Below are positions 2,075 to 19,802 of a stretch of DNA of 59,366 bases, one piece after another. Source of the DNA: Oscillospiraceae bacterium. GTDB lineage: Bacteria; Bacillota; Clostridia; Oscillospirales; Oscillospiraceae. How positions within the stretch are numbered: the first letter of the stretch is position 1; each line of letters starts with the position of its first letter. The position numbers and the translations under genes were made by a program. The stretch covers positions 952 through 60,317 of the forward strand of contig WRNV01000002.1 of NCBI GenBank assembly GCA_009776445.1, written 5' to 3'. The notes beneath the pieces were generated by a model. That model searched no databases. It saw only the letters and a list, made by a program, of their open reading frames with translations, and had not been told where the DNA came from.

Positions 2075-3043
2075 ATGTTTCAACTGAAGTATGAAAAGTT
2101 TTTGAAGATAATTAATGATTATGAACTAATTCCAAAGGAAATCGAAAAAGTTGCAATAGCAATGTCTGGCGGAAAGGATGCACAGGTACTTACAGCGCTG
2201 TTGCTTGAATATCAACAAAAGGAGCGGCGAGATCTTGAATTGGAGATTGTGACCGTTGCGGCGCCGGGATGGAAATATACACCTGACAAGTACTTTGCCA
2301 CAGATGAAAGCAAAAAGGGTTATATAATTGAACAAAAGAAAGCTATTGATGAGACAAGGGAATTTTGGGAGAGGAAAGGTATACCATATACCTACATCCA
2401 TACTGTTCCCGGGATAAATGAAGATATACTTTTAAACGCATCAAAGCCATGCGTTTGGTGTTTTTTTGGTTTATACAGAGCTTTGTGTAAGTACCTTGAA
2501 GATGAATATGACAAGGGTAAGAACATTACTTTAGCTGTAGGGCTAACCAAATTTGATTTGCTTTATGTGCTGGAATCTTTGATTATCAGATCTGGGGGAA
2601 AGACTTGGGAGTATGACAAAATACATGATAATCAAAAGTATTATTTCAATAGAATGCAGTTATCCTGGTTTAGTCCATATCCCAAATTGAAAATCGGAAT
2701 TCCAAATAAGGAGATATATAAAATAACCCCTATTATAGATATTACTGATAATGAGACTAGAGAGTTAGCAAATGCAATGGGTTTGCCGAGGATTCCCGAC
2801 CCTTGTCACAAGCTGTTCGGGGATAAATTTGAATCTGATAAAAGGCATTTTGACAGATATTTAGCTGGTACAACAACAGAGGATGTGAACCTTGATCATG
2901 TTAATAGTGGGTTTTTCTCTCAATATGAAAGTTTACTAGATACTTTTACTAGAGTAGGTGTTCTTCCGCCTATTGAAGAAATTGACAACATTTTATACGA
3001 TGGATTGTACAATCCACTAGTCACATCGGTTTTTAGAGATTAA
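2075..3043 (+). CDS. TtcA-like PP-loop ATPase / sulfurtransferase
   Basis: This 322-aa protein belongs to the HUP/PP-loop superfamily. The nucleotide-binding loop SGGKDA is at residues 31-36. A CVWC pair (Cys126, Cys129) and a later PDPCHKLFG cysteine (Cys244) reproduce the CxxC plus distal Cys pattern that binds a 4Fe-4S cluster in tRNA 2-thiocytidine synthetase TtcA and relatives. Such enzymes adenylate a substrate and transfer sulfur (or release AMP) in the cytoplasm. As first gene of a biosynthetic operon it may thiolate or activate a pathway intermediate rather than tRNA; that is inference. The ATG at 2075 is preferred over an earlier in-frame ATG at 2018 because TAGGGA lies 6 bases upstream and similarity begins there. 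An amidotransferase or NAD-synthetase-like ligase role is a less likely alternative. Confidence 0.7.
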   Translation: MFQLKYEKFLKIINDYELIPKEIEKVAIAMSGGKDAQVLTALLLEYQQKERRDLELEIVTVAAPGWKYTPDKYFATDESKKGYIIEQKKAIDETREFWERKGIPYTYIHTVPGINEDILLNASKPCVWCFFGLYRALCKYLEDEYDKGKNITLAVGLTKFDLLYVLESLIIRSGGKTWEYDKIHDNQKYYFNRMQLSWFSPYPKLKIGIPNKEIYKITPIIDITDNETRELANAMGLPRIPDPCHKLFGDKFESDKRHFDRYLAGTTTEDVNLDHVNSGFFSQYESLLDTFTRVGVLPPIEEIDNILYDGLYNPLVTSVFRD

Positions 3044-3223
3044 TATTTTATAGCAAACGTTGTGTTGCCCACAACCCAAACATACGAGCCTATGCGCGCT
3101 TGAAGTGGTTAGCGGCTGGGAGGCGGGGGTGTGACAACAAAACCAAACAACTTGTTTTAAATAGTAACTTATTATAAACGCAGGTTATAATGCGGGTAAA
3201 GTGGATCGAGGAGGGGCATAATT

Positions 3224-4204
3224 GTGGGAAATGATACATATATTAAGTATATTGATTACTATTTACCAGGGAATTACATTACTGTTGAGGATGTATTCTC
3301 AAGTCTTGATGATGAGGTATTTAAAAGTAAGAACATAGAGACAGAAAAGTTCATTAGTAAATTCAAAACTGAAACTAGACTAGATAAGATTTCCGTATTT
3401 CAGAAAGAGGATGATTTGGCGATAATAATTGCTAACATGGTAGACAAATTATTAGATGAAACCAAAATTGATCCTCATGAAATAGGTTATATTGTGTGTG
3501 GCAACGATGTATTAATGAGATATAATAACACATCGATCATACACTATATACAAAATGTATATAACTTTGATAAATCTACTGTCATACCATTGATACAACC
3601 TTGCACGGCATCACTTTTTGCTATGGGACTTTCAAGAAATTTACTGGATCAAGAAAAAAAGTATATGCTTATTATTAACGCCTGCAAATTGGAATCGCCA
3701 GAAGACAGATTTATTGATTTTACAATGAGGGGTGATGGAATAGGTCTTCTATTAGTTGGATGTGACGCAGGTTCATTGAGAATAACTGGTTGGAATTCCT
3801 GTAATCTAGGCAATCCAAGTTACAACAAGATCGTAAAGAAACCTCAAAGCCAAGACTATCGGGGTGATATGATAAGCCGAGGGATTTCTTTTATCGAAGA
3901 GACTTTAGCAAAATTTAAGCTTGAAAGGAAAAATATTGGAAAAGTTATTACATCCAATGTGAGATATGATGTTTATCATGATGTATATAGCCATTATTTA
4001 AAAATGAGTCCCAAAATATTCTTCTTGGAAAATATCCCCAATGGTGGACACATTGTCGATGTTGATATTATCAGAAATTTAAAGGACTATATAGAAAGCA
4101 ATGAGAAGCCGACAAAGAATCAAAATATAATTTTGTATTCCCCAGATTTACAAGAATCTTTGGATGTAAATTATCATTTAGTGTCACTAGACCGTGTTGA
4201 ATAA
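3224..4204 (+). CDS. KAS III-like (FabH-family) condensing or acyl-transfer enzyme
   Basis: A 326-aa thiolase-fold protein of FabH size. The likely nucleophile Cys127 lies in IQPCTASLFAMGL, as in ketoacyl-ACP synthase III. The C-terminal half has NGGHIVDVDIIRNL (about residues 273-286) where FabH carries its Asn loop. I cannot identify a clean FabH His/Asn pair, so it may be an acyltransferase or a decarboxylation-independent synthase rather than a true chain-initiating KAS III. The start is GTG at 3224 behind GAGGAGGGG. It is followed 31 bases later by an acyl carrier protein, then an adenylating ligase, suggesting that it acts on the carrier-bound substrate these load. AT-rich codon use matches the rest of the island operon. 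Confidence 0.7.
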   Translation: MGNDTYIKYIDYYLPGNYITVEDVFSSLDDEVFKSKNIETEKFISKFKTETRLDKISVFQKEDDLAIIIANMVDKLLDETKIDPHEIGYIVCGNDVLMRYNNTSIIHYIQNVYNFDKSTVIPLIQPCTASLFAMGLSRNLLDQEKKYMLIINACKLESPEDRFIDFTMRGDGIGLLLVGCDAGSLRITGWNSCNLGNPSYNKIVKKPQSQDYRGDMISRGISFIEETLAKFKLERKNIGKVITSNVRYDVYHDVYSHYLKMSPKIFFLENIPNGGHIVDVDIIRNLKDYIESNEKPTKNQNIILYSPDLQESLDVNYHLVSLDRVE

Positions 4205-4235
4205 AACTAAATGACGTATTCATTATGGAGGCCAT

Positions 4236-4487
4236 ATGATTTTAAAAAGTAATTATGCTAAAGCTATTATCAATGCTTTGAAGGAAGTTACTTCAAACGA
4301 TAGTATTAGCAAAGATACTGATATTCAAAAGGATATATATATCGATTCAATGGGATGGATTCAATTTCTCATAAAGCTCGAAAAGAAATTTAAATATTCA
4401 TTCGAACCTGGTTTTCTTAGCAAAGAAAAATATGAAACCGTAAATGACCTTATCAATTGTATTGTACGCGTTATTGATTCAAAATAA
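4236..4487 (+). CDS. Acyl carrier protein
   Basis: An 83-aa, mostly helical, acidic protein with the carrier motif DSMGW. Ser38 is the expected phosphopantetheine site. It carries covalently tethered acyl or aminoacyl intermediates in the cytoplasm. It is flanked by a KAS III-like enzyme upstream and an AMP-forming ligase downstream, with an acyl-CoA-dehydrogenase-like protein next, so the four probably form one loading-oxidation-transfer module. A GGAGG ribosome site precedes the ATG. No phosphopantetheinyl transferase is encoded in the window, so the host enzyme would have to activate it. Confidence 0.85.
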   Translation: MILKSNYAKAIINALKEVTSNDSISKDTDIQKDIYIDSMGWIQFLIKLEKKFKYSFEPGFLSKEKYETVNDLINCIVRVIDSK

Positions 4488-4531: not shown

Positions 4532-6094
4532 ATGGAAAAAAATGATATTGAGAATTTCTATCAATTGTTCGATTATATAGCGGATAATAATGTTAACTAT
4601 ATTGAATACTTATATTGGAGCGAACGTAAGTATAAGTATCTAAAAAAAAGCTTCGCAGAAATACATCGTGATATACGTAATTGTTATAGTAATTTAAAAC
4701 AATTTGGTATAACAGATAATTCAATAATACTTATTGATATTGATAATTCATATGAGTTCCTTGTCTGTGATTTTGCCGTAATTCTGACAGGCGCGTTATC
4801 TGTAGTTTCCAATAGTAACGAACCATCAGAAATAGTTATAGATAGAGTGGAACAATTTAAGGTTGATTATATAATCAGTAAAAAAACGAACGCGGATCTA
4901 GGTGTTGACACTAAAGTCATTGATATTTATTCCTTACTCGAAATATCCAATAACTCAGAAGTTGTTCCGACAAGATACAATAAGAGAGACTTCTCCATCG
5001 TCTTCTCATCAGGGACATCAGGATTCCCAAAAGCATTAGGTATAACTGAACCGGGATCAATAAGGAGTTCAAGACATTTTTTTAACTATATGCGGTTCTA
5101 TTCTTCAGATAAATTTATGATCTATCTTCCATTAGCAAATTACCAGCAGCGTTTTTTCTTTTGGGGATGCCTGATCACATCAGTCAATATAGCTTTTGGC
5201 GACGATAAATCTCTATTGCACGCTTTGAAAGAATTCAATCCAACAATACTACTAGCATCTCCCAATTTCTACTACAATTTATTCTGTTTAGATAATAATA
5301 AAAAGAGTTTAGCTAAAAAAATATTCAAAAACATTGATAATAGAATTATATGTAGACATATTACTCATAAGCCAATATATGAAGCGCTGGGAAAGAAGAT
5401 GCGGTATTTACTCACTGGCATGGCGCCAATTGATATTAAGATTTTAGAGCACTTTCGGGAAAGCAACTTGGAAATCTACCAGATATATGGGCAAACTGAG
5501 ATAGGTATGATAGCTTGTAACAATAAAAAGCAAAACAGAATTGGAACTGTAGGGAAACCAATTATCAAGTTATATTTATCTGAGGATAATGAAATTATTA
5601 CCCAAAGTGATTTCCCAATTGTTAGTTGTTACTACAATAAAGACAATACTAAAGATTTTCTGGATATTACAAGGCCTACTGGAGATGTCGGGAGCATTGA
5701 TGATGATGGATTTTTACGTATTAGCGGGAGAATGAATGAGACAATCATACTCAATAATGGAGCTAAAATAAATCCCATTACGATTGAACAGAAGATCAAA
5801 TCAAGTTTGCAAATTGCTGATATAGTAATCTTCAAAACAAGACAAGAAAGCGATAGCTTTACCTTAAATATAGTTTTGTTATTAGATGGCTTTTCCAGTC
5901 TTGACGATAAGATTGTTAAACAAAACATTAGTAGTGTCCAAGAAATAAAGGCGAATACCACCGATGTTCACATTTACAAATATAGTTTCACACATGATGA
6001 AAAAAGAATTTTCTATACGGAGAACGAAAAGTTTTCACGAGCGCGAGCCATTAGTTTTTTCAAGGATAATTCTGAAAAGTTGATAGCTATTTAG
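4532..6094 (+). CDS. AMP-forming adenylating ligase (ANL superfamily)
   Basis: A 520-aa acyl/aminoacyl-AMP ligase. Visible core motifs are the P-loop FSSGTSGFPK (residues 158-167), YGQTEIGM (A5-type), and TGDVGSIDDDGFLRISGR with the hinge after the conserved Asp (A7/A8-type). It would activate a carboxylic or amino acid with ATP and load it on the preceding carrier protein. The C-terminal lysine of the usual A10 motif is not obvious: the corresponding stretch reads EKFSRARAISFF. The second half-reaction may therefore differ or use another residue. Substrate cannot be read from sequence alone. ATG is preceded by GGAAGGA. Ligase, ACP and acyl-CoA-dehydrogenase trios are known to make oxidised carrier-bound amino acids, for example pyrrole-2-carboxyl thioester from proline. 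Confidence 0.82.
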   Translation: MEKNDIENFYQLFDYIADNNVNYIEYLYWSERKYKYLKKSFAEIHRDIRNCYSNLKQFGITDNSIILIDIDNSYEFLVCDFAVILTGALSVVSNSNEPSEIVIDRVEQFKVDYIISKKTNADLGVDTKVIDIYSLLEISNNSEVVPTRYNKRDFSIVFSSGTSGFPKALGITEPGSIRSSRHFFNYMRFYSSDKFMIYLPLANYQQRFFFWGCLITSVNIAFGDDKSLLHALKEFNPTILLASPNFYYNLFCLDNNKKSLAKKIFKNIDNRIICRHITHKPIYEALGKKMRYLLTGMAPIDIKILEHFRESNLEIYQIYGQTEIGMIACNNKKQNRIGTVGKPIIKLYLSEDNEIITQSDFPIVSCYYNKDNTKDFLDITRPTGDVGSIDDDGFLRISGRMNETIILNNGAKINPITIEQKIKSSLQIADIVIFKTRQESDSFTLNIVLLLDGFSSLDDKIVKQNISSVQEIKANTTDVHIYKYSFTHDEKRIFYTENEKFSRARAISFFKDNSEKLIAI

Positions 6095-6198: not shown

Positions 6199-7401
6199 AT
6201 GGAATTTAACTTTTCACAAGAGCAATTGGAACTAAAAAGAGTCATAGGTAAATTTGTTGACAAGGAACTTACGCCTTATGCGGCAGGATATGACAGAAAA
6301 GAAAACCCAGAGGATTGCATACCTTGGCCCATAATAGAAAAGGCAATAGAGCTAGGAATTGGCAGCATGGCTGTTCCAAAAGAGTATGGTGGTGATGAAC
6401 TATCTAGTGTTGAGATATTGACGATCATTGAAGAACTTGCTCATGGGGATGCAGGTATTGCCTATACTTTATTATCAACTATAACTGGCACTCAGTTGAT
6501 AGCTAGATTTGGAGATGAGGAACAAAGGGCACGCTGGCTAACAAAGATAGCAAACGACCAAACCAAAAGATTTTTAGTAGGATTTGCACTGTCTGAACCT
6601 CAATCTGGATCTGACAATATGTCTCCAAATCCAAATGCAGGTATGTTGACGACAGCAGTGCTAGATGGTGATAAATACATAATAAATGGCGCTAAGAGTT
6701 TTATAACTAACGCAGGAATTGCGGGATTATACATCGTCTGGGCTAGAACTGATAAGACAAAAGGAGCGCCACAGGGTGGGCTTAGCGCATTTTTAGTGCC
6801 AGCAGATACAATTGGTATTAATGTAGGAAAAATTGAGGACAAAATGGGAAACAGATTGTCACAACAAGGTGAATTAATATTCGAAAACTGTACAATCCCC
6901 GAGAATAATTTACTTGGAAAAGAGGGAGATGGACTTCAGATTTGTTTAGCAATGATCGAAAATCGTTTTCCCGCTGTTGGAGCCATTGGTACTGGCATTG
7001 CCCAGACAGCCTATGATATTTCTTACAAATATGCAAAAGAAAGAATTCAGGGTGGGACACCAATTATAAATCATCAAGCAATAAGCCATAAATTAGCTAA
7101 TATGCTGATTTCAATAGAATCATCAAGGTTGCTATACCAAAAAGCAGCGTGGCATTTAGATAACAAGATACCAAATATGATTATAAGTTCAATGAGCAAG
7201 GTTAGCGGTTCGGATGCCGCCATTATGGCATCAAATGAAGGTATTCAGATTTTAGGATGTTATGGTTGTTCAAGAGAGTACTCAATAGAAAAGCTCTTTA
7301 GAGACTCTAAAGCACTATCAATATGTGAATCCGCAAACGAAATACAAAGAAGCAATATTGTCATGATGGTTCAAATGATGGAACAGAAACATCGCGGATA
7401 G
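6199..7401 (+). CDS. Acyl-CoA dehydrogenase-family flavoprotein
   Basis: A 400-aa protein with the complete acyl-CoA dehydrogenase architecture: N-terminal helical domain, FAD-binding middle domain (VGFALSEPQSGSD, KSFITNAG), and C-terminal helical domain. The short-chain-type catalytic glutamate is retained in SICESANEIQR near the C-terminus. It should introduce a double bond alpha-beta to a thioester. In this operon the substrate is likely the acyl or aminoacyl group on the neighbouring carrier protein rather than a CoA ester, as for prolyl-PCP dehydrogenases; that is inference. No dedicated ETF genes are nearby. Start at 6199 rather than the in-frame ATG at 6175 because GGGAGG lies 8-9 bases upstream and family similarity starts at MEFNFSQEQ. 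Confidence 0.85.
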   Translation: MEFNFSQEQLELKRVIGKFVDKELTPYAAGYDRKENPEDCIPWPIIEKAIELGIGSMAVPKEYGGDELSSVEILTIIEELAHGDAGIAYTLLSTITGTQLIARFGDEEQRARWLTKIANDQTKRFLVGFALSEPQSGSDNMSPNPNAGMLTTAVLDGDKYIINGAKSFITNAGIAGLYIVWARTDKTKGAPQGGLSAFLVPADTIGINVGKIEDKMGNRLSQQGELIFENCTIPENNLLGKEGDGLQICLAMIENRFPAVGAIGTGIAQTAYDISYKYAKERIQGGTPIINHQAISHKLANMLISIESSRLLYQKAAWHLDNKIPNMIISSMSKVSGSDAAIMASNEGIQILGCYGCSREYSIEKLFRDSKALSICESANEIQRSNIVMMVQMMEQKHRG

Positions 7402-7438: not shown

Positions 7439-8602
7439 ATGGATTACTATAGTCTCAATGAAAGTGATCAAAAAGATTTTAATTTTTTCTTTTGTGACAC
7501 AACGCTCAGAGATGGTGAGCAAGTGCCAGGTGTCAGATATACGCCTGAACAAAAATCAGAAATTGCACAACTGATGGATAATGTTGGGATAGAATCAATT
7601 GATGCTGGTTTTGCGGCAACTTCAGAAGAAGAAAGGCTTTCAATACGAAAAATTTGTGATTTGGGCTTGAAAATGAGAATAATGAGTATGTGTCGTGTTG
7701 TTCGTGAAGACATTGATTATGCTTATTCTTGTGGTGTGGGAGGAGTTATTTTATTTATTCCCGGTTCGGATATTCACCTAAAAGCGAAATTCGGAGATGA
7801 TATTTCTGCAGTTAGACAAAAACTTGTACAAAAAGCGATGGATGCGATTAAGTATGCTAAGGATAGAGGCCTTTTTATCGAGTTTGGAGTGGAAGACTCA
7901 ACGAGGATGGACTTCAATGTACTTTTAGAGATACTGTCATTGGCACAGCTAGAAGGTGCGGACGTTCTTGGAACTACTGATACAATAGGTTATTTTACTC
8001 CCGAGATGACCTATGATTTCATAAAGAAATTGGCAAATCAATTGGAAGCGCCAATAGGGGTACACTGTCATAATGATATGGGGCTTGCAACAGCAAATAC
8101 AATTGCCGGTTTGTTGGCCGGAGGAGGATATTGTTCCCCAACAGTCAATGGAATGGGTGAAAGAGCAGGTAATGCGTCTCTGGAAGAAGTGATCATGATT
8201 TTAAAAGTACTATATAAACAGGACCTAAAATACGATACGAGTATTTTAGGAGCTTTATCCAAAAAAGTTGAAAAATATTCAGGAGTTTCGATGGATATTT
8301 TCAAGCCGATTGTTGGACAAAATGCATATTCGCATGAGTCAGGCATACATGTCCACGGGATGTTAAAAGACGTAAATACCTACGAGCTATTTGATCCACA
8401 GTTAGTAGGCCATTCCAGAAAATATGAGATGGGAAAACATGCCGGTAAGCATACTATCAGATATATTTTAAATATGAACGGATTCGAAGTATCGGATGAG
8501 GAAGTAGCAGATTTCTGGAAACACATGAAGAATAACGAAAATGCCGGAGTGTACTACACTGTGGATGACGTAATAACAGAGTACAAAAAACTAAGGGGAT
8601 AA
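7439..8602 (+). CDS. Homocitrate / isopropylmalate synthase-like Claisen enzyme
   Basis: A 387-aa HMGL-like TIM-barrel enzyme of the LeuA/NifV/AksA group, which condenses acetyl-CoA with a 2-oxo acid. The catalytic DTTLRDGEQ (residues 20-28) and metal-binding HCHND (His209, His211) are present, followed by SHESGIHVHGMLKDVNTYE and GKHAGKH, which resemble homocitrate synthases (NifV/AksA) more than long LeuA. It lacks the regulatory LeuA C-terminal domain, as NifV does. Two roles are possible. It may make homocitrate (a nitrogenase cofactor ligand, given the NifHDK- and NifB-like genes). Alternatively, with the aconitase pair two genes downstream, it may lengthen a 2-oxo acid side chain as in homotyrosine or homophenylalanine biosynthesis. 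No LeuB-type dehydrogenase is present in the window. Confidence 0.8.
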   Translation: MDYYSLNESDQKDFNFFFCDTTLRDGEQVPGVRYTPEQKSEIAQLMDNVGIESIDAGFAATSEEERLSIRKICDLGLKMRIMSMCRVVREDIDYAYSCGVGGVILFIPGSDIHLKAKFGDDISAVRQKLVQKAMDAIKYAKDRGLFIEFGVEDSTRMDFNVLLEILSLAQLEGADVLGTTDTIGYFTPEMTYDFIKKLANQLEAPIGVHCHNDMGLATANTIAGLLAGGGYCSPTVNGMGERAGNASLEEVIMILKVLYKQDLKYDTSILGALSKKVEKYSGVSMDIFKPIVGQNAYSHESGIHVHGMLKDVNTYELFDPQLVGHSRKYEMGKHAGKHTIRYILNMNGFEVSDEEVADFWKHMKNNENAGVYYTVDDVITEYKKLRG

Positions 8603-8612: not shown

Positions 8613-8951
8613 ATGGTTATTGATAATTGGACAAAGGTAGACAATGAGCTTATCGGTAAGAACGCTGATATGCGAGTAATTACCTCTGAAAATATTTCCG
8701 TCAGCGAATTTGAATTCAGAGAAACGATAGACCTTCCCATACACAGTCATAATAGCGAACAAACAACAATTGTTGTAGAAGGTGAAATGACTATCAGATA
8801 CGGAACAATAGAAAAAAAGATGAGCGCTGGCGACGCGTGTATTATTCCCGCAAACATACCTCATTGTGCAACTATATCGAAAATTCCGTTTAAATCATAT
8901 GATATTTTTTATCCATTTAGAGAAGACTTTATACAAAAGATCAGTATATAG
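8613..8951 (+). CDS. Small single-domain cupin
   Basis: A 112-aa beta-barrel protein with both cupin motifs: HSHNSEQTTIVVEGEMTI (motif 1, metal-binding histidines and glutamate-type position) and AGDACIIPANIPHCA (motif 2, with its His). Single cupins act as isomerases, lyases or metal-dependent sensors. Two genes further on comes a BacA-like prephenate decarboxylase. In bacilysin and aeruginosin pathways BacA/AerD work with a cupin isomerase (BacB/AerE), although BacB is bicupin and twice this length. A BacB-like isomerisation of the dihydro-hydroxyphenylpyruvate product is therefore a reasonable guess, not more. It starts 10 bases after the preceding stop. Confidence 0.75.
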   Translation: MVIDNWTKVDNELIGKNADMRVITSENISVSEFEFRETIDLPIHSHNSEQTTIVVEGEMTIRYGTIEKKMSAGDACIIPANIPHCATISKIPFKSYDIFYPFREDFIQKISI

Positions 8952-8999: not shown

Positions 9000-10256
9000 A
9001 TGAAGCAGACATTAATAGAAAAAGTTATTTCAAATAAAGTTGGAAAATCTGTTTATGCAAATGATACGATTTTTTCCCCCATAGATCTAGTAATGGGTAC
9101 TGATGCTACTACACCGCTTACCATTGAGATATTTAATGAGCTTGGACTCGAATATGTCGTTAATCCTCACAGAATTGTACTTGTAAATGACCACTTTGCT
9201 CCAACAAAGGATGTCGCATCAGCAAATTTTGCGCTTATGTTGAAAGAGTTTGCTAGAAAGCAGAAAATAGAAAACTATTTTGAAATTGGAAGAAGCGGCA
9301 TTTGCCATGTACTATTGCCTGAAAAAGGATTTATCAAACCCTATGATATTGTCGTTGGAGGAGATTCACATACGTGTACATATGGTGGGTTGAGCGCATT
9401 TTCCACTGGTATTGGCTCTACAGACATGGCGTGTGTATGGGCAACAGGGAAATTGTGGTTTAAAGTTCCTGATACCATAAAGGTAGTGTTTTCTGGAGAA
9501 CTATCCGAAGGAGTTTATGCAAAAGACTTAGTTTTGTATTTAATTGGTAAATTAGGTATTAATGGCGCTAACTATGATATGCTCGAATTTGACGGTGAAT
9601 TAATACACAACCTTGATATTTCAAGTCGATTAACACTCTGTAACATGGTTGTAGAAATGGGGGCTAAAGCAGGGATTATTAATGTGGATTCTGTTACAGA
9701 ACAGTACTTTCAAGAGAAAAGTATTAATCTGGAATACACATATTTACATTCAGATGACGGCGCTAGATACAAAAAGACAATAGAAGTTGATGTTTCTAGA
9801 ATTGAACCGATTATCGCATGCCCATTTAGTCCGGGAAATACAAAACCCGCAAAAGAGTTGGCGAATCAAAAAATAGACCAAGTAGTAATTGGTTCCTGTA
9901 CTAATGGGAGAATAGAGGATTTCAGAATAGCTCATAAGTATTTAAAGGATAATGAAGTTCACCACGATGTAAAGTTAATTGTTATACCAGGTTCACAAGA
10001 AGTGCTCAAACAGATGGAAGAAGAGAGTATATTGCTCGATTTTATCAAATGCGGCGCCTTAATTTCCCCCCCGACTTGTGGGCCGTGTATGGGAGGACAC
10101 ATGGGGGTTCTTGGAAATAATGAAGTGGGACTTTTTACGACTAATAGAAACTTCATTGGTAGAAATGGTGATCCCTCATCGCAGGTATATTTATGCAATC
10201 CCGCAATAGCCGCATACTCAGCGTTAAAAGGCAGTATACAAATACCAGAATCATAA
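9000..10256 (+). CDS. Aconitase-family hydro-lyase, large subunit (LeuC/homoaconitase type)
   Basis: A 418-aa protein of the bacterial/archaeal LeuC-HacA size class. The 4Fe-4S ligands are Cys300 (GSCTNGR), Cys360 and Cys363 (PPTCGPCMGG); GGDSHTCTYGG is also present. It would dehydrate and rehydrate a 2- or 3-hydroxy di- or tricarboxylate produced by the upstream homocitrate/isopropylmalate-synthase-like enzyme: isopropylmalate, homocitrate, or an aryl-alkyl malate. Its small subunit follows immediately. The two-subunit form suits LeuCD, AksDE and HphCD-type systems. ATG is preceded by GAGGT. Confidence 0.88.
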   Translation: MKQTLIEKVISNKVGKSVYANDTIFSPIDLVMGTDATTPLTIEIFNELGLEYVVNPHRIVLVNDHFAPTKDVASANFALMLKEFARKQKIENYFEIGRSGICHVLLPEKGFIKPYDIVVGGDSHTCTYGGLSAFSTGIGSTDMACVWATGKLWFKVPDTIKVVFSGELSEGVYAKDLVLYLIGKLGINGANYDMLEFDGELIHNLDISSRLTLCNMVVEMGAKAGIINVDSVTEQYFQEKSINLEYTYLHSDDGARYKKTIEVDVSRIEPIIACPFSPGNTKPAKELANQKIDQVVIGSCTNGRIEDFRIAHKYLKDNEVHHDVKLIVIPGSQEVLKQMEEESILLDFIKCGALISPPTCGPCMGGHMGVLGNNEVGLFTTNRNFIGRNGDPSSQVYLCNPAIAAYSALKGSIQIPES

Positions 10257-12233: not shown

Positions 12234-12272
12234 AAAAACTAATAGATGCAATTATCACTATGGGAGGATGCT

Positions 12273-13331
12273 ATGAGCAAGAGTTTAAAAACATTGAGAC
12301 ATGAGATTGATAGTGTTAATGACTCTATCCTTGAAATGCTCAATAAAAGAACAGTGTTAATAAAAGAGGTAGTGGATCTAAAAGATCAAACTGGCTCTGA
12401 ATATTTTGATCCTGAACGTGAGACGGAAATGATGGAAAACGTTTTAAGAAAAAACAGTGGTCCTCTATATAACGATCTCATAAGGGAGGCCTTTGGCGTC
12501 ATATTTTCTACATCACTGAAGTATATGGGCATAAGTTACCAAAAAAAAATGCTGGTAAGTTCAAGCTCTGATGAATGTTTTAAAAGTATTGGAGAGATGT
12601 TTGATTTAAGTAGTAATGGACCAATTATTATTGCAGGTCCATGTGCGGTCGAAACTCCGGAATACCTTGAGACAGTAGCAAAACACTTAAAAGATAGAAA
12701 TATTAAATTCATTAGAGCTGGCGCTTATAAACCAAGATCGTCGCCTTATGACTTCCAAGGTCTAAAGGAAAACGGTTTAAAAATATTACAAGATGTTACT
12801 AAACGCTTTGGACTGTTTAGTGTTACCGAAGTGGTTGACACAAGGGACGTAGATTTAGTAATGCAGTATGTAGATATTCTCCAAATTGGAGCGAGAAATA
12901 TGCAAAACTACGAACTTCTAAAAGAGGTAGGAAAAACTGATCATCCAGTATTATTAAAAAGAGGAATTAGCGCAACTATACAGGAGTTAATGCTTGCGGC
13001 GGAGTACATTGCGCTAAAAGGCAATAAAAAGATAATTTTGTGTGAACGCGGAATTAGAACCTATGAAACGAAAACGAGAAATACACTTGATATTTCTTCA
13101 ATTCCTATTATTAAAAACGAGACACACTTACCCATTATAGCGGATTTGAGCCATTCCCTAGGAAGAAAAGATATCGTAAAAAACATCGCAAAAGCAGTTC
13201 TTTCGGCTGGCGCCGACGGTATTATGGTAGAAGTTCATCCAATTCCTGAACTTGCTCTTTCTGATAGTAAACAACAACTTAGTTTAAGCGAATTCGACGA
13301 TTTGCTTGATTGCATTAGTGAATGGAGGTAA
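12273..13331 (+). CDS. Bifunctional chorismate mutase - DAHP synthase
   Basis: A 352-aa fusion. Residues 1 to about 85 are an AroQ-type chorismate mutase (LRHEIDSVNDSILEMLNKR, FDPERE). The rest is a class I-beta DAHP synthase (IIAGPCAVET, AGAYKPRSSPYDFQG, LCERGIRT, ADLSHSLGRKDIV, GIMVEVHP). It makes 3-deoxy-arabino-heptulosonate 7-phosphate from erythrose 4-phosphate and PEP, and turns chorismate into prephenate. In a secondary-metabolite cluster this usually bypasses feedback control and raises prephenate flow, here towards the BacA-like decarboxylase. Start at 12273 because GGGAGG lies just upstream; an in-frame ATG at 12246 has none. Confidence 0.92.
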   Translation: MSKSLKTLRHEIDSVNDSILEMLNKRTVLIKEVVDLKDQTGSEYFDPERETEMMENVLRKNSGPLYNDLIREAFGVIFSTSLKYMGISYQKKMLVSSSSDECFKSIGEMFDLSSNGPIIIAGPCAVETPEYLETVAKHLKDRNIKFIRAGAYKPRSSPYDFQGLKENGLKILQDVTKRFGLFSVTEVVDTRDVDLVMQYVDILQIGARNMQNYELLKEVGKTDHPVLLKRGISATIQELMLAAEYIALKGNKKIILCERGIRTYETKTRNTLDISSIPIIKNETHLPIIADLSHSLGRKDIVKNIAKAVLSAGADGIMVEVHPIPELALSDSKQQLSLSEFDDLLDCISEWR

Positions 13332-13333
13332 TT

Positions 13334-13882
13334 ATGATCATTAAACAACTATCTACTTGTGACTGTAAAGCTGAGTTGAGCGAATTTGTTAAAGGGTTGT
13401 TTGATATTTGGAAACAGGATAGTAGTTTCTCAAAAGATAATTGTTGTTGTTCTCAACGATCAATAAACGAGGTAATGGAAAAGATTGATACGGTTGATGG
13501 AAAAACATCTGAATTTTTAGTTGCATTTAGTGAGATAACTGATAGTGTTTGCGGAATGCTGTACTTTTCATCAAATTCCAATAAAGCTGCTCATATAAGC
13601 CTTGTAAATGTTGACCCAAAACACAGAAGAATGCGAGTTGGCTTTTCGCTATTGAGCTATTGTATGGTTTTATTCGCAAAGAAAGGTATCGATTGCGCAG
13701 TATTGGAAACTTGGGATGATAATATCAGCGCAATTACGTTTTTTGAAGAATTTGGGTTTACTAAAACTTTAGCATATGGAAGGACTATTGAACTCAAAAG
13801 TAATTTTCCTGCAGTTTTACAAGAAAAATATCCTAATCTAGAAAGCCTTTCACTAGATCATTTTGACGTATCTAATACATGA
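13334..13882 (+). CDS. GNAT-family N-acetyltransferase
   Basis: A 182-aa protein with a GNAT fold. The acetyl-CoA-binding motif is ISLVNVDPKHRRMRVGFSLLSYC, followed by AVLETWDDNISAITFFEEFGFTKT, the usual beta5-alpha4 end. The N-terminal region has a run of three cysteines (NCCCSQ). Acceptor unknown. With an ArgD-like aminotransferase downstream, it might protect an amino group during biosynthesis or acetylate and detoxify the product. ATG 13334 follows GGAGGT, which overlaps the end of the preceding gene, so the two are translationally close. Confidence 0.78.
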   Translation: MIIKQLSTCDCKAELSEFVKGLFDIWKQDSSFSKDNCCCSQRSINEVMEKIDTVDGKTSEFLVAFSEITDSVCGMLYFSSNSNKAAHISLVNVDPKHRRMRVGFSLLSYCMVLFAKKGIDCAVLETWDDNISAITFFEEFGFTKTLAYGRTIELKSNFPAVLQEKYPNLESLSLDHFDVSNT

Positions 13883-13935: not shown

Positions 13936-14772
13936 TTGAAAAGTATAAAACAAATCGCAATATATGGCAAAGGCGGAATCGGGAAATCAACTACATGTTC
14001 AAATATATCGGCAGCGCTAGGATTAATGGGTTATAGAGTATTACAAATTGGATGCGACCCAAAAGCTGACTCTACTAAAACCTTAGTCGGCAAAAATAGA
14101 ATGTCAAATATTCTTGACTACATCAAGGAGAATTCAAAGAATATTTCCATTGATAGTATAGTTACTAAAGGATTTGCAAATACATACTGTATAGAAGCTG
14201 GAGGACCAGAACCCGGGATAGGATGCGCAGGCAGGGGGATTATATCGGCTATTGAAATAATCGAACAGCTTAACCTATTCAAGGAATTAGACATTGAAGT
14301 AGTAGTTTACGATGTTTTGGGGGATGTTGTTTGCGGTGGTTTCGCAGTTCCATTGAGAATGGGATTTGCAAAAGATGTGTACTTAATAACCTCTGGAGAA
14401 TTAATGGCATTATACGCGGCTAACAATATAGCCAAAGCCATAAACCGATTTGGTAAAAGAAGTGATGTTAGATTAAGTGGGATAATATGTAACCAACGTA
14501 ATGCTTACCTTGAGGAAGATATTGTAAATACACTTTCCGCCAAATTGAGTTCACAAATTATCGGTTGGATTCCCAGAGATAATATTGTTCAGGAATGTGA
14601 ACTAGCCGAAAAGACTGTCATGGAAGGCAACCCTGAATCCAGACAAGCTCAAGTCTATAGAGAATTGGCAAGGAATATTCTTGAAAATAATGATCGTGTA
14701 ATACCTACTCCTTTGTCAGACGAAGAGTTCGATAAGATGGTTAAGGAACCACTGACTAAAGACAGGGCGTAA
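13936..14772 (+). CDS. NifH-like (nitrogenase-family) ATPase / reductase component
   Basis: A 278-aa Fe-protein homologue. It retains the P-loop GKGGIGKST (residues 11-19), GCDPKADST (39-47), cluster ligands Cys97 (GIGCAGRGI, with Arg100) and Cys133 ([16 protein letters not shown]). These are the hallmarks of NifH, BchL, CfbC and relatives, so it should be a homodimer holding one 4Fe-4S cluster and delivering electrons with ATP hydrolysis to the NifD/K-like complex encoded 2 bases downstream. The start is TTG at 13936, preceded by GGTGAG. The nearest family (NifH itself, NflH, MarH, BchL) cannot be settled without a tree. Island codon use. Confidence 0.9.
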
Positions 14773-14774
14773 AA

Positions 14775-16121
14775 ATGGTTAGTGAAATTGAAAGCAAAAT
14801 AGCAATGTTAAGTACGCTAGTAACAGAAGTAAAATCTGATAATTTAAATATCAGAGATTGCATAGATATGCATCAATTTTGCGCGTTTTGGGGTGCGTTT
14901 GATATTTTAAATTACTTCAAAGATATAGGCATAATTGTACACGGTCCATCAGGATGTTTGGGAAATAGAAGATTTCTCGCAGCTATGGGGCATCATAGCG
15001 AGTGTGATAATAAACCTCACATTTCAACTTCCTTTACAAACAGAGAAGTTGTTTTTGGAGGAGAAAAAAAACTGATAGATAGCATAAATGAAGTAAACAG
15101 CCGATATAGCCCAAGGATTATTGCGGTCTTAACCAATTGCTGCGCAGATATTATTGGGGATGATGTTGAAGGATGTATTGAGGGATTACCTGATGAAATA
15201 AGAGAAAAAACGATTTATCTCAATACGGGGGGGTATTCAGGGAAATCATATCGTCGTGGAACAGAGATGGCGTTTAAGCGTTTAGCCTTACATCTTGTGG
15301 CCAACGCAAGCCCAGCAGATGTTAACAACAGGGAGAAAAGTGTAAATCTATTTCTAAGAAGATGGATTTGGGATAAGACAAAGCAGGAAGAAATTAATGA
15401 AATTAGTAGAATGTTCAAAATGATAGGTGTAAGATTGAACAAAATATTTACTCAAGGCTTATCTATCGAAGATTTTTATGAAATGCTAAACGCGCGGTTA
15501 AATGTTGCTTTATGTTTATTTTTTACCAGGGGTCTATTTGATGAATTTAATAATAGATTCAGTATTCCCTACTCAAAGATTACATATCCTATGGGATTAT
15601 ACGCTACCAAGAAGTGGCTGAATGAAATTATAAAGATTTTGCAGCTTGATGTTGATGTTGAGGATCTGGATGAAGTAAAGGAATTGGAAGAACAGCGCAG
15701 GGAATTAGTGCGTGAAATAGGAAAAGGGCGAAATTGCATTATCTGGACACAAACTGGCGAGCGTATGCTTGCGATGGTCAAGTTAGCATATGAGCTGGAA
15801 ATGGAACCTATAGTGATAGACGTAGAGCCTGCAATAGTTAGGGATAAATTTTCTGTATTTGAAAAAGAAATATTGGAAGATGAACTAGACACGAGGATAT
15901 TTATTTCAAAATATATTGAAGATGTCAATGAACTAGTCGAATATTTGGAGAATCCAATTATTATTTGTAATAATAATTACTTTCCAGACCAAACTGTTTT
16001 TAAGTATAGATTCGCCCAAAATCCAATATATGGATTCAACGGCACAAGAAAAATATATCAGGAAATGTTTAATGCGCTAAAAAAGAAGAGTAATAAGTAT
16101 TCATTATTTGTAGAAGGCTAA
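14775..16121 (+). CDS. NifD-like catalytic subunit of a nitrogenase-like enzyme
   Basis: A 448-aa member of the NifD/NifK/NifE/BchN superfamily. Three P-cluster-type cysteine positions are present: Cys36 (MHQFCAFWG), Cys61 (HGPSGCLG) and Cys122/123 (TNCCADIIGDD), with spacings close to NifD Cys62, Cys88 and Cys154. Cys247 in LNVALCLFFTRGLFDEFNNR followed by FSIPY aligns by eye with the NifD Cys275 region that ligates FeMo-co. The NifD His442 counterpart is not recognisable. The C-terminal NPIYGFNGTRKIYQ matches the family GY/GF-G motif. With its partner it should form a heterotetramer that reduces an unknown substrate. It is shorter than NifD, nearer the size of biosynthetic and MAR-type relatives. 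Confidence 0.85.
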   Translation: MVSEIESKIAMLSTLVTEVKSDNLNIRDCIDMHQFCAFWGAFDILNYFKDIGIIVHGPSGCLGNRRFLAAMGHHSECDNKPHISTSFTNREVVFGGEKKLIDSINEVNSRYSPRIIAVLTNCCADIIGDDVEGCIEGLPDEIREKTIYLNTGGYSGKSYRRGTEMAFKRLALHLVANASPADVNNREKSVNLFLRRWIWDKTKQEEINEISRMFKMIGVRLNKIFTQGLSIEDFYEMLNARLNVALCLFFTRGLFDEFNNRFSIPYSKITYPMGLYATKKWLNEIIKILQLDVDVEDLDEVKELEEQRRELVREIGKGRNCIIWTQTGERMLAMVKLAYELEMEPIVIDVEPAIVRDKFSVFEKEILEDELDTRIFISKYIEDVNELVEYLENPIIICNNNYFPDQTVFKYRFAQNPIYGFNGTRKIYQEMFNALKKKSNKYSLFVEG

Positions 16122-16124
16122 AAT

Positions 16125-17402
16125 ATGACAAATACAGCTCTATGCGTTGATTCAATTGAAAAATGTGGCATATTGGGTGTTAGCCATGTAATAGCCCAAA
16201 TAGCGAATTCATCAGTTGTCGTCCATGGTCCTAAAGGGTGTGTTTACCCTGCTTATGAAGCGTCAATTAATTATCCTTTGAACATTAACTACACAGAAAT
16301 GTGTGAAAAGTCTACTGTTTTTGGCGGAGAATTGGATGTAAGCAAAAAAATAGTTGACGAGTTCTATGAAAATAGGCCGGATTTAATGGCTGTAATAACT
16401 ACATGCTCATCTGAAATTATTGGAGATGATATTGAGGGAATAATAAAACTCGCGAACTTACCGATTCCTGTGATCAGGATTGATGGCGGAGGATTTCTTA
16501 ATACACAGATATCTGGAATGAATATGGCCATGAAAGCCATTATTGCAATGCTGTGCAAAAACAGCGACAACTCTTTTCCGATAGTGAACCTTATCAGCCC
16601 AATTTGTATACCCTCAAGTTGGAGAGAAGATATGGTATATCTAGCTAACTTACTAAATGAATTTGGAATTAAGGCAAGGCCCTTGTTTTGTGACGCAACC
16701 GCGAAGAGCATTATTGATTATGGCCGCGCGTGTTTGAACGTAGTATTGTGTTCACCGATAGGGCTAGATGCCGCAGAATATATGAGAAGGCATCAGGGGA
16801 TTCCTTATAAATCTCTACCATATCCATTGGGGCTGGAAAAAACGGATTTCTTCATTGAAAGCATTCTGGAAACCCTGCAGTACAGTAATGATGTTTTCTC
16901 GCTCATGGCTGAAAAAAGAGCTAATATTAAAAGGCAATTCAATGATGGTATGGGGAAAGTAAACACATTTAGATTGTTTGAATATATTAAGCAACTGGAA
17001 AAGATGATAGTTGGGCCTTCAGAAATTGCCCTGGCTTTTTTGAATATGATTGTAAATGAATTTGAAGATAAAATTGACACAGTAATAGTGAAAGATTTAT
17101 CATTAGAAGACATTGATGAAATAAAAGCAAAGTTTAAAGAAATATCTCCAACGACTAGAATATTTTTTACAAATGATAATCAAAAAATAAAAGAAAGAAT
17201 TCAAACTGTAAGACCTCAGGTCTTGCTGGGAAATGATGTTGACTACTATTATGCGAAAGAGGTGTATGAACCTGCATATGTTAATATTTGTTATCCAAGT
17301 CAAAGGGAAATACACTTTAGCTATCGTCCGATAGTAGGATACGAAGGAATACTGTATTTCTTTGAAGTATGGTACAATAAAATCATAGATAGATACTATT
17401 AA
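16125..17402 (+). CDS. NifK-like subunit of a nitrogenase-like enzyme
   Basis: A 425-aa partner of the preceding subunit, starting 4 bases after its stop. Cys14 (EKCGILGVSH), Cys39 (HGPKGC) and Cys94 (TTCSSEIIGDD) reproduce the three NifK P-cluster ligands with near-identical spacing (25 and 55 residues). GIPYKSLPYPLGLEKTDFF and the terminal PIVGYEGILYFFE are family hallmarks. Since NifN lacks two of these cysteines, the pair looks like a catalytic NifDK-type complex rather than a NifEN scaffold. A Cys also occurs here in LNVVLCSPIG, at the same strand as Cys247 of the D-like chain, so that residue alone does not prove a cofactor site. Confidence 0.85.
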   Translation: MTNTALCVDSIEKCGILGVSHVIAQIANSSVVVHGPKGCVYPAYEASINYPLNINYTEMCEKSTVFGGELDVSKKIVDEFYENRPDLMAVITTCSSEIIGDDIEGIIKLANLPIPVIRIDGGGFLNTQISGMNMAMKAIIAMLCKNSDNSFPIVNLISPICIPSSWREDMVYLANLLNEFGIKARPLFCDATAKSIIDYGRACLNVVLCSPIGLDAAEYMRRHQGIPYKSLPYPLGLEKTDFFIESILETLQYSNDVFSLMAEKRANIKRQFNDGMGKVNTFRLFEYIKQLEKMIVGPSEIALAFLNMIVNEFEDKIDTVIVKDLSLEDIDEIKAKFKEISPTTRIFFTNDNQKIKERIQTVRPQVLLGNDVDYYYAKEVYEPAYVNICYPSQREIHFSYRPIVGYEGILYFFEVWYNKIIDRYY

Positions 17403-17427
17403 TGGTTAACAGGGAGGAGGGGTGAAT

Positions 17428-17607: not shown

Positions 17608-17695
17608 GCAATAATTGAGACGCGCGATAAAAAAGCAATCTATTATCATATCTGCGTCATCACAACAAGACATTTTTAAGGAAGGTGTGTTTTTT

Positions 17696-18913
17696 ATGTC
17701 TTATAATTCTAATATCGATTCTATTGAATTACTACGGAAAGCAGAAAAATCTCTGATGTATGTAACTCCTAGGCCAAGCATCGTTTTTATTGAAGGCAAA
17801 GGCTCATATCTTTGGGATAGTGAAGGCAATAAATATCTTGATATGATTGCCGGTTGGGCTGTGTGCTGTTTAGGGCATTCACCTGATACGATGGTTGACG
17901 CTTTGGCACGCCAAGCAAAACAATTAATTAACCCAAGCCCGTCCTTTTATAATCAACCAGCAATAGAATTTGCGGATCTACTTACAAAAATCTCCTGCAT
18001 GGATAAGGTGTTTTTTATTAATTCCGGAGCTGAAGCTAACGAGGGCGCCATCAAATTAGCTAGGAAATATGGACAAAAATTTAAGAATGGCGCATATGAA
18101 ATAATTACCACTTGGAATAGTTTTCATGGAAGAACACTGGCTACAATGGCAGCTTCTGGCAAAAAACAATGGGAAAATCTTTATAAACCCCAGCCAAAAG
18201 GGTTTACAAAGGTAGAATACAATGATACTGAGGCACTAAGACAATCAATATCAAAAGATACTTGTGCCGTTATGCTTGAGCTGATTCAAGGTGAGGGTGG
18301 TGTAATAGTAGCCGATAAAAACTATGTTAAACAAGTAAGACAGCTTTGCGATGAGAATAATATTTTACTGATCATAGATGAAGTGCAGACTGGTTTAGGC
18401 AGATTAGGCGATATGTTTGCATATGAAGACTATGAAATTGAGCCAGACATTTTGACGCTTGCAAAGGGAATAGGAGGCGGGTTCCCACTGGCAGCTCTAC
18501 TTGCTAAGGACAAGGTGTGTTGTTTTGAAGCAGGGGATCAGGGTGGAACTTATAGTATGACACCGCTTGGCGCTGCAGTTGGGATAGCAGTGGTCCAGGA
18601 GATTATTGATTTAGATTTATGTAATCACGTAAAAAAGATCAGCGAATACTTTACCAAGCAGTTAAGTGATTTAATACTTCGCCATAAAGTCGTCAAAGAG
18701 GTAAGAGGGAAGGGACTATTGTTAGCAATTGGGTTGCATGAAGAAATTGCTAACGAAATTAAAGATGAATGTATGAATAATCACTTGATTATTAATGCTC
18801 CAAATACTAAAACACTAAGGTTCATGCCAGCCTTAAATATCTCAACTGTTGAAGTCGACGAAGCTATGAGCATTTTAAACCAAATACTGAATAACTTTAC
18901 TGGAAAATCTTAA
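17696..18913 (+). CDS. Class III PLP aminotransferase (ArgD/ornithine-aminotransferase type)
   Basis: A 405-aa fold-type I aminotransferase. Visible are INSGAEANEGAIKLAR, WNSFHGRTLATMAASG, IIDEVQTGLGRLGDMFAYE and the PLP lysine in LAKGIGGGFPLAA. The pattern is closest to acetylornithine/LysW-aminoadipate-semialdehyde aminotransferases, which act on an omega-aldehyde or terminal amine. In this cluster it could install the amino group on a pathway keto or aldehyde intermediate. The ATG at 17696 follows AAGGAAGG and starts at the family N-terminus; the open frame extends further upstream without a site. AT-rich codon use as in neighbours. Confidence 0.85.
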   Translation: MSYNSNIDSIELLRKAEKSLMYVTPRPSIVFIEGKGSYLWDSEGNKYLDMIAGWAVCCLGHSPDTMVDALARQAKQLINPSPSFYNQPAIEFADLLTKISCMDKVFFINSGAEANEGAIKLARKYGQKFKNGAYEIITTWNSFHGRTLATMAASGKKQWENLYKPQPKGFTKVEYNDTEALRQSISKDTCAVMLELIQGEGGVIVADKNYVKQVRQLCDENNILLIIDEVQTGLGRLGDMFAYEDYEIEPDILTLAKGIGGGFPLAALLAKDKVCCFEAGDQGGTYSMTPLGAAVGIAVVQEIIDLDLCNHVKKISEYFTKQLSDLILRHKVVKEVRGKGLLLAIGLHEEIANEIKDECMNNHLIINAPNTKTLRFMPALNISTVEVDEAMSILNQILNNFTGKS

Positions 18914-18944
18914 AAGCGTCGCTATATAGAAGGTTGGTAATATT

Positions 18945-19802
18945 ATGAATGAAATTCTCCACCCTTGTTTTGACGAAACTGCGTTAGGATATAGAATTCA
19001 CCTCCCCATAGCAGAAAAATGCAACACCAAATGTAATTATTGCAAGATGGCATTCTCAAAGTGTGATATAAGGCCTGGTGTTACTGAAGAATTATTGAGG
19101 AGTAGCGATATAGACGCTTATGTCAATGAAAGCTTGAAAATATATGATGATTGTAGGATCGTTGGGATAGCAGGGCCAGGAGATCCATTGGCGAATCCTA
19201 AGGAAGTTTTTTATGCGTTGGAACGGATAAGCAAGAATTATCCTAATTTTAAAAAATGTATGTGTACGAATGGATTTGGGGTAGAAGACTACGCTGATAA
19301 GATAAAAGAAGTGGGTTTAGATTATATAACGCTTACAATTAATTCAATAAACGAATGTACGCTCAGTAAAATATACAAATTCATTTATTATCACGGCGAA
19401 TACTATAAAGGAAAAAGCGCGGGGCAACTAATATTAAAATTGCAAAAATCCGCATTGCATATTCTGAATAGATTTGAAAATATAAAAATTAAAATCAATA
19501 TTGTCTTTATACCAGGAATAAATGATATGGAAATTGATGATTTGATACAGTTTTTATGCAAGTATAAAATTGACATAATAAACATTGTTCCATTGCTTCC
19601 AGTTAATGGAACCGAATACGAGTCTATTAAGCCTTTAACGTATGGCGAATTCGATAAAATTAAAAAAGATCTCCAAAACAAGTATAAAAAAGTTAGGTTT
19701 AAGCAGAACTGTCAACGGTGTCGTTCTGACGCGAGAGGAAAGGTAACTGCTCAGAGAGAAGGCAATAACAATCAATGCTCCTTTGGGTACGCGGGCTTAT
19801 AG
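18945..19802 (+). CDS. NifB-like radical SAM protein (metallocluster biosynthesis)
   Basis: A 285-aa radical SAM protein that follows NifB throughout its core. Seen are N-terminal HPCF (6-9), the AdoMet cluster motif CNTKCNYC (Cys26, Cys30, Cys33), RPGVT, IAGPGDPLANP (75-85), CMCTNG (Cys107 at the NifB third-cluster position), IPGIND, PLLPVNGTE, and the terminal NCQRCRSDARG (Cys256, Cys259). NifB fuses two 4Fe-4S clusters around a carbide to make NifB-co, the precursor of all nitrogenase cofactors. The usual NifB ExRP motif reads DIRP here, a possible functional change. There is no C-terminal NifX domain. Presence next to the NifHDK-like genes suggests that the latter carry a NifB-co-derived cluster; that is inference. 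Confidence 0.85.
   Translation: MNEILHPCFDETALGYRIHLPIAEKCNTKCNYCKMAFSKCDIRPGVTEELLRSSDIDAYVNESLKIYDDCRIVGIAGPGDPLANPKEVFYALERISKNYPNFKKCMCTNGFGVEDYADKIKEVGLDYITLTINSINECTLSKIYKFIYYHGEYYKGKSAGQLILKLQKSALHILNRFENIKIKINIVFIPGINDMEIDDLIQFLCKYKIDIINIVPLLPVNGTEYESIKPLTYGEFDKIKKDLQNKYKKVRFKQNCQRCRSDARGKVTAQREGNNNQCSFGYAGL

Follow-up and report, generated by a model that had tools for sequence, protein, structure and literature searches.

A nitrogenase-like gene cluster in an Oscillospiraceae genome and its possible link to arsenic natural products

Within the nitrogenase superfamily, only a few branches have, to our knowledge, been assigned a function. The Mar system, with PDB entry 9FMG as the reference structure named in PMC12552129, contains a P-cluster together with a homocitrate-free [Fe8S9C]-cluster, and its maturase MarB has all NifB motifs, according to the excerpts of that paper available to us. 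One nitrogenase that lacks NifEN has been published (excerpts of PMC11573651). Here we analyze a 59,366-nucleotide window (the whole stretch of DNA studied) from an Oscillospiraceae bacterium (assembly GCA_009776445.1, contig WRNV01000002.1, forward-strand positions 952 to 60,317), in which genes for NifH-, NifD-, NifK- and NifB-like proteins lie within a cluster at positions 2075–28314. Judged from their sequences, the H, D and K proteins are a distinct branch of the nitrogenase family. New here is a link of the nitrogenase-like cluster to arsenic, which the related loci suggest.

The cluster is an island of 25 genes (Table 1) with a GC content at third codon positions (GC3) of 0.24–0.45, compared with 0.50–0.64 in nine measured flanking genes. 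Because its GC3 is below that of the flanking genes, the unit looks foreign and was apparently acquired; it is bordered on both sides, on the same contig, by higher-GC DNA. The source genome consists of 279 contigs and is 89% complete, with a contamination of 6.35% that calls for caution. The first 18 genes (2075–19802) are all on the forward strand, with GC3 values of 0.24–0.38 and intergenic gaps of −10 to 272 nt. The first-pass annotation of this DNA had described these genes as a biosynthetic cluster around its own nitrogenase-like enzyme. The genes it named were found near the positions it gave, all on the forward strand, by open reading frame and family scans and, for the BacA-like gene, by tblastn, and the biosynthetic character of the cluster was borne out. 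The row is thus real, while its end at 19802 had been set too early: seven further genes (GC3 0.28–0.45) extend the unit to 28314, and encode a solute-binding protein (SBP), an Fe-S/molybdenum (Mo) oxidoreductase, an ATP-binding cassette (ABC) ATPase–SBP fusion, two permeases, MobA and a MarR regulator. Neither this second half nor the arsenic link, which comprises ArsL in a sister cluster and an arsenic-associated MarR, had been part of that annotation.

A genome scan for NifD-like relatives yielded five: A. alkalicellulosi (a record titled UNVERIFIED_CONTAM), R. hungatei, A. populeti, a 3.5 kb contig of a Ruminococcus metagenome-assembled genome (MAG), and Photobacterium lutimaris. Two more came from whole-genome searches: G136, which is one contig of 4,068,724 bp, and G516, from the family of P. 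lutimaris. Locus counts refer to the seven complete loci, plus the MAG contig where eight are given. The SBP, Mo oxidoreductase, ABC ATPase, both permeases, NifH, NifD, NifK and the NifB-like protein occur in all seven. DUF5714 is present in five, as is a DapA-like gene that the window and R. hungatei stretches lack (two copies scanned gave 326 and 289 bits, dapA cutoff 206; all family scores below are likewise in bits, with the cutoff of the family). The aminotransferase, the acyl carrier protein (ACP) and the ligase are found in four of the seven; the BacA-like, isopropylmalate synthase (IPMS)-like, cupin and aconitase-pair genes in three, as are the PP-loop and ketoacyl synthase (KAS)-like genes; and the chorismate mutase–DAHP synthase and the acyl-CoA dehydrogenase in two. 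ArsL or an ArsL-like gene occurs in three, and the MarR gene in five and on the MAG contig (six of eight), the two loci without it being the Photobacterium-type ones. Because the core is common to all seven while the scaffold genes differ, the family combines a constant core with different scaffold modules.

The linkage to BacA-like and DUF5714-like genes that had been proposed is conserved in full order between the window and G136 and in part in A. populeti. In G136, the row of the window recurs in identical order, with the importer block ahead of the row rather than behind it and a DapA-like gene inserted before NifB. Genes for electron-transfer flavoprotein (ETF)-type proteins accompany the cluster in G136 and A. 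populeti only, with top matches to ETF or to acryloyl-CoA-reductase electron-transfer subunits, all below cutoff. Genes of the moeA, mobB and moaA types follow the R. hungatei cluster and have homologues in G136 and A. alkalicellulosi. Genes for the NusG-type antiterminator LoaP stand ahead of the R. hungatei and A. alkalicellulosi clusters (171 and 186, cutoff 125; L030:10415-10942 and L021:2466-2984), and none was seen in the window; a short open reading frame before the G136 SBP gene resembles LoaP by eye. In a Photobacterium cluster, a divergent methylaspartate-mutase-E-like gene lies next to genes for an ATP-grasp protein and an MFS transporter (L026:15760-18895).

The NifD-like family is rare. 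Profile searches over overlapping genome sets, which include the genomes already known, gave full-strength matches in 391 class genomes only for the window, G136, R. hungatei and A. alkalicellulosi, together with two weaker matches that group in the tree with a Nostoc gene beside vnfDK (labelled VnfE by position). There were two matches in 197 Photobacterium-family genomes, one in 293 genomes of the Photobacterium class, two in 11 genomes of the G136 family, one in 397 of the A. populeti family and, among 319 phylum genomes, the window only.

The D and K proteins were placed in a 75-row tree calculated with careful IQ-TREE settings, alongside a quick version; support values are bootstrap/SH-like approximate likelihood ratio test (SH-aLRT). 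The window-type D proteins form one clade (eight rows, 100/100, stem 1.38), and so do the K proteins (seven rows, 100/99, stem 0.68). The two are separate from the clades with the labelled NifD, NifE, VnfD, NifK, NifN, VnfK and MarK rows and their clostridial relatives, and MarK falls in a separate 13-row clade (100/99). The sample is mainly clostridial, with MarD represented by the clostridial D partners of close MarK homologues. The deep branching order is weak, and the nearest neighbor of the K clade, BchB (93/85), is a long branch. The NifH-like proteins constitute a group of their own in the quick tree (eight rows, SH-aLRT 93). None of the three subunits is thus placed inside Nif or Mar, in agreement with the distinct lineage proposed initially. 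The family scores are far from those of nitrogenase: the D protein reaches 88.6 against nifD (cutoff 653.6), with nifE as its top NCBIfam match (113, cutoff 505), and the K protein 67.7 against nifK (cutoff 427.3). Of the solved structures, MarK gives the best match to the NifK-like profile. Membership in the standard Nif, NifEN, Mar and Bch/Cfb groups was rejected on the basis of family scores, ligands and tree. Close MarK homologues or further nitrogenase-like DK pairs were also seen in clostridial genomes and on a Treponema plasmid (L070, L073, L069, L072, L074, L089); the Treponema DK genes adjoin an ABC transporter and a GNAT gene.

The six P-cluster cysteines, three of them in K, are invariant (8/8 D and 7/7 K rows). 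The equivalent of Cys275 is kept in all eight D rows, and the His442 column is Phe in all eight. The column of Cys275 holds Pro in BchN, which argues against the BchNB/CfbD class with only a 4Fe-4S cluster. None of V70, R96, Q191 and H195 is kept in the D clade, and the equivalent of Arg359 is retained. The invariant thiols C77, C123 and C398 of D and C60 of K are restricted to the window-type proteins: none of the 16 D and 12 K rows used for comparison has Cys at these positions, and at C398 a gap is found in most of them. With regard to His429, a ligand on a Mar-specific loop, the only invariant His residues of the D clade are 33, 56 and 82, and the invariant C398 lies near the C terminus. 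In the NifB-like proteins, the cysteines of the HPC, CxxxCxxC and CxxC motifs are invariant in 7/7 loci, with the Photobacterium protein scoring over the NifB cutoff of 344 (528) and those of the window and G136 under it (185 and 186). No separate NifEN scaffold was found in the loci or in the 89%-complete source genome, which has only two PF00148 genes. By analogy with Mar, we infer the same set of a P-cluster and an [Fe8S9C]-type cluster for the window enzyme. The IPMS-like gene was considered as a supplier of homocitrate (NifV 357, cutoff 463); this role is weak because the gene sits with the aconitase pair and occurs in only three of the seven complete loci.

The arsenic link has three elements, of which ArsL and the MarR regulator are separate lines. 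In R. hungatei, ArsL, an enzyme that forms C–As bonds (NCBIfam 706, cutoff 450), is encoded between the permease genes and NifH. That locus further contains an L-amino-acid-ligase-type ATP-grasp protein, a DGC protein and an MFS transporter, and downstream of it lie an ArsR/SmtB-type gene, HgcA (468, cutoff 275), ACR3 (357, cutoff 283) and an ArsC-like gene below cutoff (87, cutoff 215). Each of the two Photobacterium-type clusters has an ArsL-like gene with a sub-threshold score; for the one protein scanned, ArsL was the best NCBIfam match (331), followed by CUAEP (270) and then by matches of about 50. The other line is the MarR regulator, whose relatives were found in 13 of 196 class genomes, including those of the window and G136; nine of the other 11 neighborhoods were fetched (those of G181 and G069 being left out). 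Arsenic families score over cutoff in six of the nine, and in eight when weaker matches are included. They comprise arsM in all four proteins scanned (L106, L108, L110 and L111, with 302, 311, 307 and 297; cutoff 263), arsN1 in two of four (L106, 231; L109, 233; cutoff 170), ArsD in two of two (L110, 131; L112, 137; cutoff 90), and, in L110, the one locus scanned for them, ArsA (855, cutoff 650) and ACR3 (384, cutoff 283). ArsN1-like scores below the cutoff of 170 were given by L113 (132) and by a GNAT of L112 (130). The two neighborhoods that rest on weaker matches are L105 (ArsC-like, 87, cutoff 215; an ArsR-type homologue; HgcA, 487, cutoff 275) and L113 (ArsN1-like and an ArsR-type homologue). 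The clostridial loci share a common descent, so the linkage of MarR does not represent six independent events. The thiols of its CC...C motif are each present in 14–15 of 16 rows, one being absent from L112 and L113 and all three from the truncated MAG copy. Family and neighborhood suggest that the window protein is an arsenic-type regulator. Taken over both lines, an arsenic-linked gene (MarR, or ArsL/ArsL-like) is present in 8/8 loci.

The third element of the link is the Mo oxidoreductase, whose best PDB match is the arsenate reductase ArrA (6cz7). The Mo-ligand region of the oxidoreductase reads HSxICDTN in five of the seven loci and HNSLCDTS in the two Photobacterium-type loci, with His and Cys aligned to HSSVC of ArrA, residues that are presumably catalytic. 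All five homologous GNATs inspected have a CC or CCC motif, as does one Photobacterium protein that has no Pfam match. DUF5714 was tried as an arsenic marker and rejected: it occurred in three of 24 genomes searched, and one of those three loci was arsenic-linked, with neighbors assigned by eye. A full-text search of open-licence PMC returned no paper on it; MbdU, an NCBIfam relative, appears as a name in a list in the part of PMC13188914 available. As a separate observation, HgcA, the corrinoid protein of mercury methylation, occurs over cutoff with ArsR-type genes in R. hungatei (L004:20014-21337) and in G112 (L105:6359-8080). An HgcB-like ferredoxin, recognized by eye, and an ArsC-like gene lie nearby, and in G112 HgcA adjoins the same type of MarR.

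NifHDKB, the importer and the Mo oxidoreductase are present in all seven loci, whose scaffold genes vary, and these shared enzymes therefore probably have as their target something that all loci have in common. A reductase for the arsenic part is favored, as the scaffold genes are not common and every locus has an arsenic-linked gene. We therefore read 2075–28314, tentatively and at just short of an even chance, as an arsenic-responsive natural-product cluster in which NifDK reduces an arsenic centre or an arsenic-bearing intermediate. The ArrA match of the Mo enzyme, the conserved cluster ligands with the clade-specific thiols, and the LoaP genes ahead of two of the clusters also speak for this reading. 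On it, the cluster family is arsenic-responsive and probably organoarsenical, and its shared NifB-dependent reductase may act on arsenic itself. The fuller proposal, a nitrogenase homologue that takes As(III) or organo-As(III) to the arsine level by NifB-type cluster chemistry, with a shared core serving interchangeable organic scaffolds, is rather unlikely. In such a pathway, As(III) would release the MarR repressor, the importer would bring an amino acid into the cell, and the shikimate-, Claisen- and ACP-type genes would build the organic scaffold. The Fe-S/Mo oxidoreductase would convert an As(V) oxo-acid to As(III), and NifB would make an [Fe8S9C]-type precursor to be passed straight to NifDK without NifEN. 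With ATP-driven electrons from NifH delivered via the P-cluster, NifDK would reduce the arsenic centre, or the intermediate that bears it, further, to yield a low-valent arsenic nucleophile or an arsine-type group. The data show the gene content, its conservation, the separate clade, the cluster ligands, the arsenic neighborhoods of the regulator family and ArsL in a sister cluster; from these we infer the entry of arsenic into the product, the action of NifDK on it and the sequence of the steps.

Several observations weigh against the arsenic reading. No known C–As-forming enzyme was found in the window; ArsL was absent at E 1e-30 from the genomes of the window, G136, A. alkalicellulosi, A. 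populeti and the Ruminococcus MAG; and no ArsM was found among the window cluster proteins scanned, a search that was not extended genome-wide. The Photobacterium-type loci combine a sub-threshold ArsL-like gene with the lack of MarR. Of the nine MarR neighborhoods, one short stretch (L107) has no arsenic gene and two have sub-threshold matches only, and the window MarR, whose gene is on the opposite strand and 12.6 kb from NifD, could respond to another signal. Against PhsA (242, cutoff 694) the Mo enzyme has a higher score than against ArrA (139), both far below cutoff; DUF5714 is not specific for arsenic; the importer looks like an amino-acid type, not an arsenic type; and As(III) generally damages Fe-S enzymes.

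Two other readings are serious rivals to an arsenic-reducing enzyme. The nitrogenase-like enzyme might, in line with the first-pass annotation, reduce an organic scaffold or an ACP-bound intermediate, for example at a dihydro-aromatic ring, a C–O or a C–S bond, with arsenic as an inducer only or irrelevant. The rich scaffold gene sets of the window, G136 and A. populeti are in its favor, and known relatives reduce C=C (Bch) or cleave C–S bonds (Mar), as stated in the excerpts of PMC12552129; yet the fetched stretches of four of the seven complete loci keep NifHDKB without BacA, IPMS and aconitase homologues, so that no single scaffold is shared, and we regard this reading as unlikely. The stricter claim that the reductase must serve a shikimate-derived ring is not supported, since no DAHP synthase homologue was found either in the fetched stretches of the same four loci, which retain NifHDKB, the importer and the Mo enzyme. 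A Mar-like reductive lyase, which would cleave C–S or C–As bonds of an imported amino acid and feed sulfur or arsenic metabolism, would agree with a parts list equal to that of Mar, with the importer present in every complete locus, and with the MarK match of the NifK-like profile. The position of D and K outside the Mar clade, and their association with anabolic genes and with a C–As-forming enzyme in one locus, make it distinctly improbable. A cryptic nitrogenase acting on N2, or a NifEN-type assembly scaffold, is very unlikely. In its favor, the NifH-like protein comes near the nifH cutoff (386.5 against 394), nifE is the top match of the D protein, and the Photobacterium NifB exceeds its cutoff; against it, the nifD and nifE scores are low, His442 is absent, and the 89%-complete source genome has no PF00148 genes beyond these two, so that no separate nitrogenase to be served was found.

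The individual genes are listed in Table 1. At the C terminus of the ABC ATPase is an amino-acid SBP domain, a homologue of the stand-alone SBP encoded at 20117; it would be cytosolic and might sense the imported ligand within the cell. The other clostridial loci encode full-length homologues of this fusion. Just before the island, on the reverse strand, a glycyl radical enzyme gene is truncated by the window edge (3-1715; trans-4-hydroxyproline dehydratase-like, 1020, full-length cutoff 1100), and downstream lies an open reading frame of 2720 amino acids (43664-51826) with, by eye, a signal-peptide-like start.

Table 1. Genes of the island in window coordinates, with scores in bits.
Gene product	Position	Strand	Basis
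TtcA-like PP-loop protein, possible sulfur transferase	2075..3043	+	NCBIfam TtcA 25.9, far below cutoff 272; homologues in G136 (84%) and A. populeti (61%)
KAS III-like condensing enzyme (weak assignment)	3224..4204	+	Pfam FAE1_CUT1_RppA 22, cutoff 27; G136 71%, A. populeti 39%
Acyl carrier protein	4236..4487	+	PF00550 27.7, cutoff 20.8
AMP-forming acyl ligase	4532..6094	+	PF00501 107
Acyl-CoA dehydrogenase family	6199..7401	+	PF00441/02770/02771; top NCBIfam acryloyl-CoA reductase 299, cutoff 640
Isopropylmalate/homocitrate-synthase-like Claisen enzyme	7439..8602	+	LEU1_arch 417, cutoff 485; NifV 357, cutoff 463
Cupin	8613..8951	+	PF07883 39.5, cutoff 27.2
Aconitase-family large subunit	9000..10256	+	NF001614 564, cutoff 385
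Aconitase-family small subunit	10320..10820	+	TIGR02087 186, cutoff 109
BacA-like (prephenate decarboxylase-type)	10837..11484	+	tblastn 33.5% identity, E 2e-18, to plasmid gene annotated BacA; Pfam PDT 17, below cutoff
DUF5714 Cys-rich protein	11529..12233	+	PF18978 171
Chorismate mutase–DAHP synthase	12246..13331	+	NF009239 499, cutoff 279
GNAT with CCC motif	13322..13882	+	PF00583
NifH-like reductase component	13936..14772	+	PF00142; NCBIfam nifH 386.5, cutoff 394
NifD-like subunit	14775..16121	+	PF00148
NifK-like subunit	16125..17402	+	PF00148
Class III aminotransferase	17675..18913	+	PF00202; argD 416, cutoff 410
NifB-like radical SAM protein without C-terminal domain	18945..19802	+	TIGR01290 185, cutoff 344; match covers profile 12-281 of 441 only
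Amino-acid-type SBP	20117..20986	+	PF00497
Fused Fe-S/molybdopterin oxidoreductase	21050..24349	+	PF00384, PF13247
ABC ATPase fused to second SBP domain	24321..25826	+	PF00005 + PF00497
ABC permease 1	25814..26575	+	PF00528
ABC permease 2	26565..27248	+	PF00528
MobA-like molybdopterin nucleotidyltransferase	27245..27856	+	PF12804
MarR regulator, arsenic-associated family (CC...C)	27862..28314	-	Neighborhoods of relatives

A branch with ligands for large Fe-S clusters that is tied to secondary-metabolite and arsenic genes offers a directly testable new class of reaction. If the arsenic reading is correct, the enzyme would be, as far as we know, the first of nitrogenase type to take part in the chemistry of arsenic, and a hidden family of arsenic-containing natural products, largely from anaerobes, would be indicated. 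No report that places a nitrogenase-like enzyme in the biosynthesis of arsenic metabolites or natural products was found among the titles and abstract beginnings searched in open-licence PMC. The part of PMC3578447 available makes no mention of the cluster genes, and that of PMC11653729 has no MarR content, its sole MarR text match being the name of an author.

In comparison with described systems, the window shares with the bacilysin/anticapsin pathway a BacA-like enzyme, and differs in its Claisen/aconitase set and its nitrogenase-like genes; other Bac genes were not identified in it. The arsinothricin cluster arsQML has ArsL in common with the R. hungatei sister cluster; in the excerpts of PMC8552651 it consists of three genes, none of them nitrogenase-like, unlike the window, where neither ArsL nor ArsM was found. 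The bisenarsan (bsn) cluster couples arsenic to a carrier-bound acyl chain, as the window cluster may do, and resembles the present family in having core genes in varied surroundings; its C–As bond is made by the bsnM/bsnN route, and the available excerpts of PMC12159101 mention no nitrogenase. With Mo-nitrogenase NifHDK and NifEN, the window enzyme shares the protein families, the P-cluster cysteines and the equivalents of Cys275 and Arg359; in contrast, it has no equivalent of His442 or of V70/R96/Q191/H195, no NifEN was found with it, and its D and K scores are far below cutoff. Like MarBHDK, as described in the excerpts of PMC12552129, it combines H, D and K with a NifB-type maturase and no NifEN in the cluster, and it shares the six P-cluster cysteines and the Cys275-equivalent ligand, which is Cys270 in Mar. 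By contrast with Mar, its D and K proteins occupy a separate, well-supported clade, keep other gene neighbors, and carry additional invariant thiols.

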